Shown one piece after another: positions 52,053-64,000 of a DNA stretch of 64,000 nt. This stretch comes from Jannaschia sp. CCS1 (GTDB lineage Bacteria; Pseudomonadota; Alphaproteobacteria; Rhodobacterales; Rhodobacteraceae): NCBI RefSeq assembly GCF_000013565.1, contig NC_007802.1, forward strand, positions 496,001-560,000, given 5' to 3'. The position numbers were made by a program, and so were the translations under genes. Within the stretch, counting starts at the first letter, position 1. Every line of letters begins with the position of its first letter. Below the pieces are notes generated by a model that made no database searches, was not told the origin of the DNA, and saw only the letters and a list, made by a program, of their open reading frames with translations.

Positions 52053-52508
52053 TTATGCGACGCGCAACTCTCCGTCAAAGAACCTGGCAAGACGCTCGAA
52101 CGAGGCGGTCCACCCGGCCAGGACCATCTGATTGAACGCCTCCGGCAAGGGTGCATGGGTCAGCGTGACCTCTGTGCCGCCATCGACCTCCTTGAACCTG
52201 ACGTCGACGCGCATCGGGGACTGGCCCGGCATCCCCGACATCGTATAGGTCAGCCGGTTCGGCGGGTCAAAGGTCTGGATCGTCCCGTCGATCAGGTGGT
52301 CGCCGACGCCATCAATGCTCATCAGGTGATGGTAGGTGCCGCCGACGCGGGCATCGATGGTGGAGACCACCTTGCTGGTGTCCTTGCAGCCCCACCAATG
52401 GGTCGTCTTTGACGCGTCGATCCAGGCGTTGAAGACGTCTTCTTTGGCCGAGGCATAGGTTCGGCGAAGTGTCAGGGTGTCTCCGGTAATGTCATGGTCC
52501 GTTGTCAT
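52053..52508 (-). CDS. SRPBCC/AHSA1 domain protein
   Basis: A 151-residue AHSA1-type SRPBCC (START-like) protein. Typical pieces: LTLRRTYASAKEDVFNAWIDASKTTHWWGCKD near the N-terminus, VGGTYHHLMS, VDVRFKEVDGGTEVTLTHAPLPE, and a long last helix GWTASFERLARFFDG. The ATG at 52508 (MTTDHDITGDTLTL) overlaps the end of the ArsR gene by 17 bases, so it is translated with its regulator. ArsR-SRPBCC pairs are common; the ligand is unknown. Inserted between nusG and rplK. Confidence 0.9.
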   Translation of the reverse strand: MTTDHDITGDTLTLRRTYASAKEDVFNAWIDASKTTHWWGCKDTSKVVSTIDARVGGTYHHLMSIDGVGDHLIDGTIQTFDPPNRLTYTMSGMPGQSPMRVDVRFKEVDGGTEVTLTHAPLPEAFNQMVLAGWTASFERLARFFDGELRVA

Positions 52509-52839
52509 CTTCCGTATCCTTTCGGGTTTGGGCCAGGATGTCCTCGACCTGATCGAAATGGTGTTTCCAGAACCGCGTGTAGTGGCCGACCCACGCGGCG
52601 GCCTCTTCTGCCGGGTCGGCATTGACCCTGATGAACTGCTCGCGCCCGCGCTTGTCCTTGCGGATCAACCCGGCCTTTCCCAGCGTTCTGAGGTGGCGGG
52701 AAATGGCCGGTTGCGACACGTCGAAGGCGGCGGTGATCTGCCGCACGTTTTGCTCGCCATCCGACAGCTTCACAAGAATGCCGCGCCGGATGGGATCCGC
52801 GAGGGCGGAGAAGACCAGATCAAGGTCATGCGAATCCAT
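52492..52839 (-). CDS. ArsR family transcriptional regulator
   Basis: A 115-residue ArsR/SmtB-type repressor with a winged helix: LVFSALADPIRRGILVKLSDGEQNVRQITAAFDVSQPAISRHLRTLGKAGLIRKDKRGREQFI. The classic metal-binding ELCVCDL cysteines are missing from helix 3 (EQNVRQI instead), so it is not a metal sensor of that type. A perfect 18-base palindrome (52837-52854) covers its start codon, a likely site for autoregulation. Pairs with the SRPBCC gene. Confidence 0.93.
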   Translation of the reverse strand: MDSHDLDLVFSALADPIRRGILVKLSDGEQNVRQITAAFDVSQPAISRHLRTLGKAGLIRKDKRGREQFIRVNADPAEEAAAWVGHYTRFWKHHFDQVEDILAQTRKDTEDDNGP

Positions 52840-54302: not shown

Positions 54303-54335
54303 ATGGGGCACTGTAACGGGTGCCCCATTTTTTTG
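54303..54335 (+). terminator. Terminator after rplKA
   Basis: Perfect 8-base stem ATGGGGCA (54303-54310) and TGCCCCAT (54321-54328) with a 10-base loop, ending in a run of seven T (54328-54334). It separates rplKA from the lipoprotein and rplJL transcripts. Confidence 0.9.
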
Positions 54336-54371
54336 CCTATGCCTTGGCCCAACGAATGGAGTTTTTGTGAT

Positions 54372-54629
54372 ATGCCTCAAAGTTCGCCTCTTTTCATCGG
54401 ATTGATTGTTGCGCTTGCTGGGTGTGTCCCCGCGTCCAACATTGATCTGGTAAACCGCTGCATTCTTTCACAGGGGATCGAACCCGCCAGAGCGGTGGGT
54501 GGATTTTATTCGCCAAGTGGCACGTCGATTGAGGATGCTATCGTATTCAATGAACAGATCTTCGACTTAACGCCATCACAACGGGCCACTGCCCGGGCCT
54601 GCGCGGAATCGCGTCGCGGGGTGAACTAA
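54372..54629 (+). CDS. Small lipoprotein between rplA and rplJ
   Basis: An 85-residue predicted lipoprotein of unknown function. Signal peptide MPQSSPLFIGLIVALAGC with lipobox LAGC (Cys at residue 18) and Val at +2. The mature part has two more cysteines (VNRCILSQ and ARACAES). The ATG at 54372 follows GGAG by 10 bases; an ATG at 54303 is in frame but lies in the terminator stem. It starts 37 bases after the terminator, so it needs its own promoter or read-through. GC content is about 55% in the stretch I counted, below that of its flanks. No family recognised. Confidence 0.7.
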   Translation: MPQSSPLFIGLIVALAGCVPASNIDLVNRCILSQGIEPARAVGGFYSPSGTSIEDAIVFNEQIFDLTPSQRATARACAESRRGVN

Positions 54630-56009: not shown

Positions 56010-56140
56010 GATGACATAGGGGTCGTGCTTTGCCGGTGGGACGGCAGACAGATGGACCCGTCACGTCTGTATTCTTGCGAGCGCTCCGCCGAGGTCCCGG
56101 CGGCGAGGGTGCCGCGCGAGAGAGAAAGGTGCGAACGCAC

Positions 56141-60294
<4,154 letters not shown>

Positions 60295-60298
<4 letters not shown>

Positions 60299-60600
60299 TT
60301 GCGGTGCAGCGGTCAATTCCAGTTCTAGTTGCAGTCCCGTTAGCAGCGGGCTGCACCATAGTTGGCGGTGCCGACTATGTGGACATGCGCAATGACGGCA
60401 TCGTCTACGCAGAATGGAATGAAGATGGCACGGCGTACTTCACCGAATGCCCTGCACCGCGCACCGAAATGCGTCCAATTCCCGCCCCCCCACGTGACGC
60501 CTTGATAAGTACGTCTACTTCCGGCGTCGCGATATCCGAAAGAAATTATCGGCGAGCAGACTTTTTCGTCTGTCCCGAAGAGGGAGAGGTTTCCCAATGA
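60295..60600 (+). CDS. Predicted lipoprotein between rpoB and rpoC
   Basis: A 101-residue predicted lipoprotein set exactly between rpoB and rpoC. Hydrophobic signal peptide (about residues 8-19) with lipobox LAAGC (Cys at residue 20). The mature part is short and polar with two further cysteines (TECPAP and FFVCPEE), a proline-rich linker ([10 protein letters not shown]) and two Tyr/Trp patches. The ATG overlaps the rpoB stop (ATGA, 60295-60298) and its stop overlaps the rpoC ATG (ATGA, 60597-60600), so all three must be read from one message with coupled translation. GC is about 56% by my count, against about 62-65% in rpoB nearby, and it uses TTA, CTA and GTA codons that are scarce in rpoB. 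No known family. Usually rpoB and rpoC are separated by a short non-coding gap. Confidence 0.8.
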
Positions 60601-63600
60601 ACCAGGAACTGACAAACAACCCGTTCAACCCGCTGACGCCGCCCAAGGCATTTGACGAGATCAAGGTCTCGCTCGCTTCGCCCGAGCGGATCCTCAGCTG
60701 GTCCTACGGGGAGATCAAGAAGCCCGAGACGATCAACTACCGCACGTTCAAGCCCGAGCGCGACGGCCTGTTCTGTGCCCGTATCTTCGGGCCGATCAAG
60801 GACTACGAATGCCTTTGCGGCAAGTATAAGCGGATGAAGTATCGCGGCGTTGTCTGCGAGAAATGTGGTGTGGAAGTCACGCTGCAAAAGGTCCGCCGCG
60901 AGCGGATGGGGCACATCGAGCTGGCTGCCCCTGTGGCCCACATCTGGTTCCTCAAGTCGTTGCCGTCGCGCATCGGCCTGATGCTGGACATGACCCTGCG
61001 CGATCTTGAGCGGATCCTGTATTTCGAGAACTATGTGGTGATCGAGCCCGGCCTGACGGACCTGACATATGGTCAGTTGATGGGCGAAGAGGAGTTTATG
61101 GACGCGCAGGACGCCTACGGCGCCGATGCGTTCCAGGCCAACATCGGGGCTGAGGCCATCCGTGAGATGTTGTCCCAGATTGATCTGGAATCCGAGGCCA
61201 ACCAGCTGCGCGAGGACCTCAAAGAGGCCACCGGAGAGCTGAAGCCGAAGAAGATCATCAAGCGTCTCAAGATCGTTGAATCGTTCCTCGAGTCCGGTAA
61301 CCGGCCCGAGTGGATGGTGATGACCGTTGTTCCGGTCATCCCGCCAGAACTGCGCCCGCTGGTGCCGCTGGATGGGGGCCGGTTCGCGACGTCTGACCTC
61401 AACGATCTGTACCGCCGCGTGATCAACCGGAACAACCGACTGAAGCGCCTGATTGAACTCCGCGCGCCGGACATCATCATCCGCAACGAAAAGCGGATGT
61501 TGCAGGAATCCGTGGATGCTCTGTTCGACAATGGCCGTCGGGGCCGCGTGATCACGGGGGCCAACAAGCGCCCGCTGAAATCGCTGTCGGACATGCTGAA
61601 GGGTAAGCAGGGTCGTTTCCGTCAGAACCTTCTGGGGAAACGCGTCGACTTCTCGGGCCGGTCCGTGATTGTGACGGGGCCGGAGCTGAAGCTGCATCAG
61701 TGCGGCTTGCCGAAGAAGATGGCGTTGGAGCTGTTCAAGCCATTCATCTATTCGCGACTTGAGGCCAAAGGTCTGTCGTCCACCGTGAAGCAGGCGAAGA
61801 AGCTGGTCGAAAAGGAACGTCCCGAAGTGTGGGATATCCTTGACGAGGTGATCCGGGAACATCCAGTTCTGCTGAACCGCGCGCCCACGCTGCACCGTCT
61901 TGGTATTCAGGCATTCGAGCCTGTGCTGATCGAAGGCAAGGCGATCCAGCTTCACCCGCTGGTCTGTTCTGCGTTCAACGCCGATTTCGATGGCGATCAG
62001 ATGGCCGTTCACGTGCCGCTGAGCCTTGAGGCACAGTTGGAAGCCCGCGTCTTGATGATGTCGACGAACAACGTTCTGTCGCCTGCAAACGGCGCGCCGA
62101 TCATCGTTCCGTCGCAGGATATGATCCTGGGTCTCTACTACGTCACGCTGGCCCGCGAGGGCATGAAAGGCGAAGGCATGATCTTTGCCGACGTGGACGA
62201 AGTGCGCCACGCGCTGGACGCCGGTGAGATCCACCTGCACTCCAAGATCACGGCGCGCCTGCCGCAGATCGACGAAGAGGGCAACGAGATCATGGTGCGG
62301 TTCGACACCACGCCCGGTCGTGTGATGTTGGGCGCGCTTCTGCCGCTTAACGCCAAGGCGCCGTTTGATCTGGTGAACCGTCTGCTGCGCAAGAAAGAGG
62401 TGCAGCAGGTCATCGACACCGTCTACCGCTATTGCGGCCAGAAAGAGTCGGTCATCTTCTGCGACCAGATCATGTCCATGGGCTTCAAGGAGGCGTTCAA
62501 AGCGGGCATCTCCTTCGGCAAGGACGACATGGTCATTCCCGATACCAAATGGACGCTGGTGGAAGATGCCCGCGATCAGGTGGAGGAATTTGAGCAGCAG
62601 TACATGGACGGCCTGATCACCCAGGGCGAAAAGTACAACAAGGTCATCGACGCGTGGTCGAAGGTGAACGACAAGGTCACCGACGCCATGATGGGCACGA
62701 TCTCGGCCTCCAAGCGGGACGAGAACGATGCCGAGATGGAGCCAAACTCGGTCTACATGATGGCCCACTCCGGGGCCCGTGGATCTGTTACGCAGATGAA
62801 GCAGTTGGGCGGCATGCGCGGCCTGATGGCCAAGCCGAACGGTGAAATCATCGAAACGCCGATCATCTCGAACTTCAAGGAGGGTCTGACCGTTCTTGAA
62901 TACTTCAACTCCACCCACGGCGCCCGGAAGGGTCTGTCGGACACGGCGTTGAAGACGGCGAACTCCGGCTATCTGACGCGACGTCTGGTGGACGTGGCCC
63001 AGGACTGCATCGTGCGTATGGACGATTGCGGGACCGAGAACACGATCAAGGCAGAGGCGGCCGTGAACGACGGTGAAGTCGTGGCATCCCTGGCTGAGCG
63101 TATTCTGGGCCGGACGGCTGGCGAAGACGTGTTCATTCCGGGCACCGATGAGATCATCGTCGCCAAGGGCGAGCTGATCGACGAACGCAAGGCCGACGCG
63201 GTGGAAGCCGCTGGTGTCACGACGATGCAGATGCGGTCCCCGCTGACCTGTGAGGCGGAAGAGGGCGTCTGCGCGACCTGCTACGGTCGGGATCTGGCAC
63301 GCGGCACGAAGGTGAACACCGGCGAAGCCGTGGGCATCATCGCGGCGCAGTCGATTGGTGAGCCGGGCACACAGCTGACGATGCGGACGTTCCACATCGG
63401 CGGCGTGGCCCAGGGTGGTCAGCAGTCCTTTCAGGAGGTCAACGTCGACGGCAAAGTGGAATTCCGCAACGCCAACCTGCTGAAGAACGCCAATGGCGAA
63501 AGCGTTGTCATGGGCCGGAACATGGTCCTTGCGATCATGGACGATCAGGGCAGCGAACGCGCGTCGTTCAAGCTGGGTTACGGCACCAACGTTCTTGTCG

Positions 63601-64000
63601 AAGACGGCAAGAAAGTTGTCCGTGGCGACCGTCTGTTCGAATGGGATCCCTATACCCTGCCGATCATCGCGGAAGCGGCGGGAACGGCGAAGTTCGTGGA
63701 TCTTGTCTCGGGCATTTCGATCCGCGATGAAACCGACGATGCGACGGGCATGACCCAAAAGATCGTCTCGGATTGGCGCACGGCCCCCAAGGGCAATGAG
63801 CTGAAGCCCGAGATCATCATCGCGGGCGAAGATGGCGAGCCGATGCGCAACGATCAGGGCAACCCGGTCACCTACACGATGTCGGTGGATGCGATCCTGT
63901 CGATCGAAGAAGGCCAAACGGTCAAAGCCGGTGACGTGATTGCGCGTATCCCGCGGGAAGGTGCGAAGACGAAGGACATCACCGGTGGTCTGCCGCGTGT
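60597..64000 (+). CDS. rpoC: RNA polymerase beta-prime subunit, 5' part
   Basis: RpoC, of which about 1134 residues are in view before the right edge; the gene is incomplete. N-terminal zinc-binding region [21 protein letters not shown], the active-site NADFDGDQM (N461 to M469, with D463, D465 and D467 holding Mg2+), [14 protein letters not shown] and the bridge/trigger-loop region with [31 protein letters not shown]. The ATG at 60597 overlaps the stop of the inserted lipoprotein gene. Family length is about 1400 residues, so roughly 270 are missing. Confidence 0.97.

Follow-up and report, generated by a model that had tools for sequence, protein, structure and literature searches.

The adjacent genes rpoB and rpoC are treated as among the most rigid gene pairs in bacteria. 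The window analyzed here, a 64,000-nucleotide stretch of the Jannaschia sp. CCS1 genome, departs from this arrangement in that an open reading frame (ORF) for a small protein stands between the two. This raises the question of whether the ORF is a gene, how general such an occupant is at this junction, and how it could have entered a polymerase operon while leaving rpoC translated.

The slot gene of the window and its homologues

The initial annotation described, between rpoB and rpoC, a 101-residue frame with a signal sequence and a LAAGC lipobox that overlaps each neighbor by the four bases ATGA. The sequence, the ORF list and a shuffle test bear out this frame, and the overlap is present on each side (Table 1). 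The gene lies where it had been placed, at 60292..60602, while the exact ORF is a few bases narrower at each end. As had also been noted, its GC content is below that of rpoB (55.8% vs 60.7%), and GC3 is 54% vs 81%. At the left joint, rpoB ends in GAA-TGA and the slot gene's ATG at 60295 overlaps the rpoB stop (TGA, 60296-60298); at the right joint, the slot gene's own stop (TGA, 60598-60600) overlaps the rpoC ATG at 60597, with the likely Shine-Dalgarno (SD) sequence of rpoC lying within the slot gene's last codons. The genes overlap yet keep separate stops, and the word 'fused', applied to them initially, overstates this. A pattern scan of the window's slot found neither promoter nor terminator. 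Because a Rhodo-rpoB cis-regulatory RNA sits upstream of rpoB, presumably acting on the whole message, the slot gene is presumably under the same control.

Table 1. Positions in the window of the slot gene, its joints and its flanks.
Feature	Position	Strand	Basis or remark
Rhodo-rpoB cis-regulatory RNA (RF03074), 5' of rpoB	56020..56111	+	48.9 bits vs cut-off 33.6
rpoB, left flank	56141..60298	+	ORF list
Family A slot gene, predicted lipoprotein, 101 aa	60295..60600	+	ATG start, TGA stop; ORF list and homologues in L029, L091 and L041 slots
ATGA overlap, slot-gene start / rpoB stop	60295..60298	+	RTGA start likewise in 16/19 occupied slots
Codon of predicted lipidated Cys20 (LAAGC)	60352..60354	+	Pattern match only
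GGAGAGG, likely rpoC ribosome-binding site, within slot gene's last codons	60583..60589	+	Sequence
ATGA overlap, rpoC start / slot-gene stop	60597..60600	+	Sequence
rpoC, right flank, 5' part inside window	60597..63998	+	ORF list

Bacterial lipoproteins are marked by an N-terminal signal sequence and a lipobox with Cys at position +1. The 101-residue protein has a hydrophobic N-terminus, a lipobox running up to Cys20 (LAAGC) and further cysteines at positions 52 and 93; a lipobox combined with equal hydrophobicity occurs in only 0.065% of residue shuffles. The open frame alone is weak evidence for a gene, because a 98-codon frame stays open by chance with a probability of ∼0.026 at the composition of the slot, and the opposite strand has an open frame of 91 codons as well. 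Comparison is more informative. Reading the junctions of other genomes reveals homologues at the identical place in three other genera, namely L029 (genus g246, 43% identity to the window protein), L091 (g176, 46%) and L041 (g88, 31%); together with the window they form family A. All four genes start on RTGA and end on ATGA. Codon-position identity between the window gene and L029 is 0.59/0.66/0.40, and synonymous change exceeds non-synonymous change in each of the three pairs compared (Fisher p = 1e-5 for window/L029, 2e-9 for window/L091 and 8e-4 for L029/L091), pairs with L041 being saturated and left aside. Since homologues occupy the same junction in three other genera and show a coding substitution pattern, comparison supports the slot ORF as a genuine coding gene. 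Cys52 and Cys93 are invariant in the four-member alignment; the lipobox pattern is present in the window, L029 and L091, and in L041 Phe replaces the lipobox Cys. The product is probably a small exported protein, a predicted lipoprotein with a disulphide between the two conserved cysteines.

Family A appears confined to the slot within the genomes searched. A first search with the 101-residue protein gave no match in any of the genus's 12 other species. When 394 family genomes were searched with a profile, scoring at most 12 candidates in each, the four slot copies were recovered and none outside the slot; three of these matches are sequences that built the profile, and the fourth, in G099, is independent and was already known from junction reading. 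Across the class, 231 genomes yielded the window copy alone, and tblastn against 72,556 plasmids and 50,697 phages gave no match. The window protein belongs to none of the families in Pfam, NCBIfam, PHROGs or PADLOC, its three homologues match no Pfam family, and a structure model of family A (mean pLDDT 57.7) retrieves no useful PDB match. Three further candidates were rejected: the Phreatobacter homologue (L005) has no rpoB or rpoC beside it, and its match lies where frames overlap at the margin of two longer ORFs, and the weak whole-genome matches L003 and L004 likewise lack rpoB or rpoC.

The rpoB-rpoC junction across Rhodobacteraceae

The junction was read in 142 cases, 13 of them from species of the genus and 129 from other genera represented by one genome each, the latter picked down the ranking of rpoC similarity to the window (129 out of 218 matching, among 248 searched). 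Outside these counts stand L001, L002 and L020 (repeats), L150-L157 (later additions), L018 (no rpoB end) and G196 (contig starts too near), and a slot is said to hold a gene if it contains a frame of 60 aa or more. The spacer measures 46-116 bp in 122 junctions and 175-1740 bp in the other 20, and 19 of these long junctions carry a gene, the exception (L113) being 175 bp long. Within the genus, 4/13 species are occupied, by three different families; among the other genera, a long slot is found in 16/129 and a gene in 15/129. Slots contain 1-3 genes on the coding strand, which also bears the longest frame in 18/19 slots; in the L093 slot, an antisense frame of 329 codons exceeds the forward gene of 294 aa, for which a homologue exists in L017. 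The junction is therefore best read as a recurrent accessory-gene slot used by many different genes. What characterizes a hotspot, many unrelated accessory genes between the same core genes, is found here in 19/142 junctions with at least nine kinds of protein, the sampling being between species and genera. As a separate observation on the empty spacers, 64/122 fold more stably than their shuffles (z below -2, mononucleotide shuffles), so an RNA hairpin may have disappeared where slots are occupied.

The long slot appears specific to the family. In the rest of the class, none of 67 junctions exceeds 171 bp, against a long slot in 16/129 other genera of the family (p = 0.0015); the corresponding comparison for gene-bearing slots (15/129) gives p = 0.003, small genes having been sought in class gaps from 200 bp upward. 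The class set consists of the 27 best-scoring outside genomes and 40 hand-picked ones, of 136 matching among 144 (three in the family). An RTGA at the end of rpoB follows the same division, with 4/67 in the rest of the class vs 56/142 in the family (p 2e-7).

At least nine kinds of protein without detectable mutual similarity use the slot. Besides family A (four genomes), family B, whose members have an N-terminal helix and are membrane-anchored, occurs in L013, L016 and L057, with L119 weakly a fourth. Three further families recur in two slots each; L017 and L093 share a protein that is glycosyltransferase-like by eye (no Pfam match above cut-off), L032 and L060 carry hexapeptide acyltransferases (L060 just below the Pfam cut-off), and L062 and L093 share a coiled-coil-like protein. 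Single occupants are a sulfotransferase (L079), the exported proteins of L027, L035 and L145, and others in L090, L093_107 and L100. The L027 protein has no other match in 248 family genomes; that of L145 has two weak ones (27-28% identity), one broken by stops. No integrase or transposase domain was found by Pfam in 20/21 slot proteins (L016 lay outside the scan).

Family B is under constraint in the pair L013/L016 (dN/dS 0.26, p = 5e-4), and its profile search found no copy outside the slot, the matches being the sequences that built the profile. In L057, the last third runs in another frame than in L013/L016 and thereby ends on the rpoC ATGA, reflecting either a frame change or a sequence error. 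The structure model of family B (pLDDT 80.5) comprises an N-terminal helix and a small alpha/beta domain. Two apparent relationships were discarded: the best PDB hits of this model, RNA polymerase K chains (which we take to be Rpb11-type), were attributed to chance (E 0.14, TM 0.34), and a profile comparison gave no reason to join families A and B in one superfamily (probability 0.4 on the HH-suite percent scale, E 0.15).

An N-terminus counted as strongly hydrophobic (1.9 or more on the scale used) is present in 11/21 slot proteins, corresponding to 11/19 slots, and five of these proteins have a lipobox. In all 11 of these small exported-type proteins, the last Cys lies at most 12 residues from the C-terminus. 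Some larger occupants resemble surface-glycan-modifying enzymes, such as the hexapeptide acyltransferase of L032. The kinds of genes present suggest that the slot is often used for envelope traits, with steady expression at the level of RNA polymerase, a description that does not extend to all occupants, since the remaining 10/21 proteins have an N-terminal hydrophobicity of at most 1.7.

Most slot genes share a common entry. Only three of the 19 occupied slots (L062, L090 and L100) lack a gene starting on the rpoB-terminal RTGA. Of the 16 that have one, nine also run to the rpoC ATGA, one of them (L057) only by way of its frame change; other slot genes stop on ATGA or some bases upstream. Gene-bearing junctions end rpoB in RTGA more often than the others (17/19 vs 39/123, p = 2e-6; p 4e-5 with the own genus removed), an association that is partly built in, as a gene starting there needs the RTGA; moreover, the 16 slots come down to about nine protein families. 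Where an RTGA junction is empty (39 cases), the coupled frame spans just 2-37 codons. An SD-like motif precedes rpoC in 19/19 occupied and 121/123 other junctions, by a lenient pattern. Coupling of translation at such stop-start overlaps (ATGA or TGATG) has been tested in Escherichia coli and Haloferax volcanii (PMC6728339, PMC10666635), and by analogy termination-reinitiation would couple the translation of rpoB and the slot gene. The flanks themselves provide most of what the overlaps need, since rpoB ends in RTGA in 56/142 junctions and rpoC starts on ATGA. The earlier suggestion that the window gene is a recent arrival that kept rpoC translated by chance overlap is thus partly right: the gene is lineage-specific, but its family is old and selected, and the overlaps come largely from the flanks.

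Turnover, route of gain and competing explanations

We consider it likely that the window contains a small exported-protein gene in a recurrent, fast-turnover accessory slot of the rpoBC message, entered by termination-reinitiation. In outline, rpoB often ends in a Glu codon followed by TGA (GARTGA), giving a stop that contains a ready overlapping ATG or GTG. Ribosomes finishing rpoB would reinitiate at this RTGA and translate any frame behind it; the anatomy is observed, and the coupling is what the anatomy suggests. A slot gene that carries the rpoC SD in its last codons and ends on ATGA, as in the window, would leave rpoC translated. Gain would most likely proceed by recombination in the extended conserved sequences of rpoB and rpoC on either side, and selection would retain many genes whose exported or envelope-modifying products benefit from steady expression at RNA-polymerase level.

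The fast turnover itself is directly visible. A quick maximum-likelihood tree built from the 3' DNA of rpoB and the 5' DNA of rpoC (rows L019 and L024 being short) requires 19 changes to explain its 19 occupied tips, and well-supported branches force at least 15 of these changes. Occupied tips scatter singly, with clustering no greater than for shuffled labels. In the genera of G257 and G187, the slot is empty and family A is absent in the one other species examined each, the second assembly being 62% complete. Slot genes are thus gained and lost fast, and related species differ. The G187 assembly additionally contains, on contig C56 (L157), another partial rpoC (85% identity across 500 bases) that comes with an empty rpoB-rpoC spacer; this is either a contaminant or a second copy.

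Exchange through the long polymerase arms is the presumed route, favored because the same families recur in the same slot and families A and B have no copy found elsewhere. A PHI-type test on 11 of the 13 species of the genus, covering these two genes, gave a mosaic signal in rpoC (0/500 permutations as low) and none in the 3' part of rpoB (p 0.40), and no import was seen beside the slots. A more far-reaching version is possible and is put forward tentatively: the end of rpoB would act as a translational landing pad, and a pool of slot-only genes would circulate between genera via the polymerase arms, perhaps by gene transfer agents, giving exchangeable envelope traits. If so, a dropped-in gene would need neither its own promoter nor its own ribosome-binding site to reach RNA-polymerase-level expression.

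The strongest competitor dispenses with transfer, placing families A and B in the slot of an early ancestor, followed by very many losses. Several measurements accord with such vertical descent. The synonymous distances of family A (1.5-4.5, saturated and alignment-dependent) equal or exceed those of the flanking polymerase genes (0.7-1.4). For L013/L016, the cassette dS of 0.32 does not differ significantly from that of the flanks (0.44 and 0.56; p 0.15). No imported tract was detected in the slot flanks, where the species closest in sequence beside the slot mostly remain the closest at a distance from it (11 of 13 species of the genus), and none was seen around the window's slot. This leaves two possibilities, donors that are missing from the sample or long-standing residents of the slot with a history of many losses. 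Vertical descent is nevertheless unlikely, as it must accommodate occupied tips that are all single, with one change per tip, the presence of family A in 1/13 species of the genus and its absence from the congeners of G257 and G187, which would require many losses, and at least nine dissimilar protein kinds in one slot.

Alternatively, the inserts might be neutral and transient, entering permissive gaps, with survivors that merely leave rpoC translated and products useless to the host. The surrounding region lends this some credit. Across 60 genomes with long contigs plus the window, the rplA-rplJ gap reaches 500 bp or more in 34/54 (window included), making it the largest insertion place of the region; rplL-rpoB exceeds 400 bp in 12/59 and nusG-rplK does so in 9/45 (window included). 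In this control set, rpoB-rpoC exceeds 200 bp in 7/61, and rplK-rplA (0/52) and rplJ-rplL (0/59) are never interrupted. Some joints of the region thus accept inserts and others exclude them, and rpoB-rpoC is not the main hot spot. What sets this joint apart is that its insert separates the genes of two partner subunits, usually with stop-start coupling; inserts at the other joints carry long frames on both strands. Fast turnover and the altered last third of L057 would also suit neutrality. Purifying selection in families A and B, the return of the same families to the slot in distant genera, and the conserved cysteines and signal sequences weigh against it, leaving neutral insertion quite improbable.

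Two of these joints are themselves filled in the window. Between rplA and rplJ lies a second small predicted lipoprotein of 85 aa with an LAGC motif (54372-54629), its ORF preceded by a hairpin with a T run, recognized by eye at ∼54303-54337. Between nusG and rplK, the interval 52053-52839 contains two minus-strand ORFs, which we take, by eye, to be SRPBCC-like and ArsR-like.

A regulatory device in which the lipoprotein frame ties rpoC synthesis to the state of the envelope or of secretion, and which the initial annotation had envisaged as conserved, could draw on the overlaps at both sides and on the rpoC ribosome-binding site inside the ORF. It is very hard to credit, given that the protein occurs in 0/12 other species of the genus and 122/142 junctions have a short spacer only, that occupants are wholly different between species and most species have none, and that almost half of the slot proteins lack a comparably hydrophobic N-terminus while the SD-like motif precedes rpoC in every occupied slot. 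A chance open frame or a sequence error, for which the frame statistics, the open opposite strand and the 12 congeners without the protein might have spoken, can be practically dismissed in view of the homologues at the same junction in three other genera and their coding substitution pattern.

Significance and relation to known systems

An extra, changeable gene in 15/129 other genera would show that the polymerase message is usable as a docking place for accessory genes, and the stop-start overlaps would permit such docking without breaking rpoC expression. In this sense, the slot amounts to an experiment that nature has repeated, on termination-reinitiation and on how essential operons gain genes. 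Small exported protein families that lack known function are a further yield; for two of them, A and B, no copy outside the slot was found in the genomes searched. No published account of this rpoB-rpoC arrangement was found among the matches listed in the open-licence literature, which does not imply its absence from print.

Short overlaps of the same kind underlie ATGA coupling as described by Huber et al. (2019, PMC6728339; 2023, PMC10666635). Whereas the pairs of the latter study are stressed as subunits of one complex, here an optional, unrelated gene stands between two subunits. That the rpoBC region is exchangeable between species is illustrated by Mycobacterium yongonense, in which an interspecies replacement of rpoBC by homologous recombination has been reported (PMC5742357); there, the polymerase genes themselves moved, and the abstract mentions no accessory gene. 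A possible vehicle, and only that, is the gene transfer agent RcGTA, whose 4-4.5 kb packets are described as a good fit for exchanging genes in Rhodobacteraceae, homologous recombination being a possible means of insertion (PMC7296036); a packet centered on the slot would hold ∼2 kb of each polymerase gene as arms.

The closest parallel is offered by hotspots of horizontal transfer, many of which lack recognizable mobile elements and for which double recombination in flanking core genes has been proposed (Oliveira et al. 2017, PMC5635113). In both, unrelated accessory genes come and go quickly while the core genes on either side stay the same. Unlike those hotspots, the slot separates two genes for polymerase subunits, its 1-3 genes are on the coding strand, and entry is usually through a stop-start overlap; moreover, the present survey compares species and genera, and recombination in the flanks was not detected beside the slot. 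The slot is thus best described as a variation on the known core-gene-flanked hotspot, set apart by its place within the rpoBC message and by its usual stop-start overlaps.
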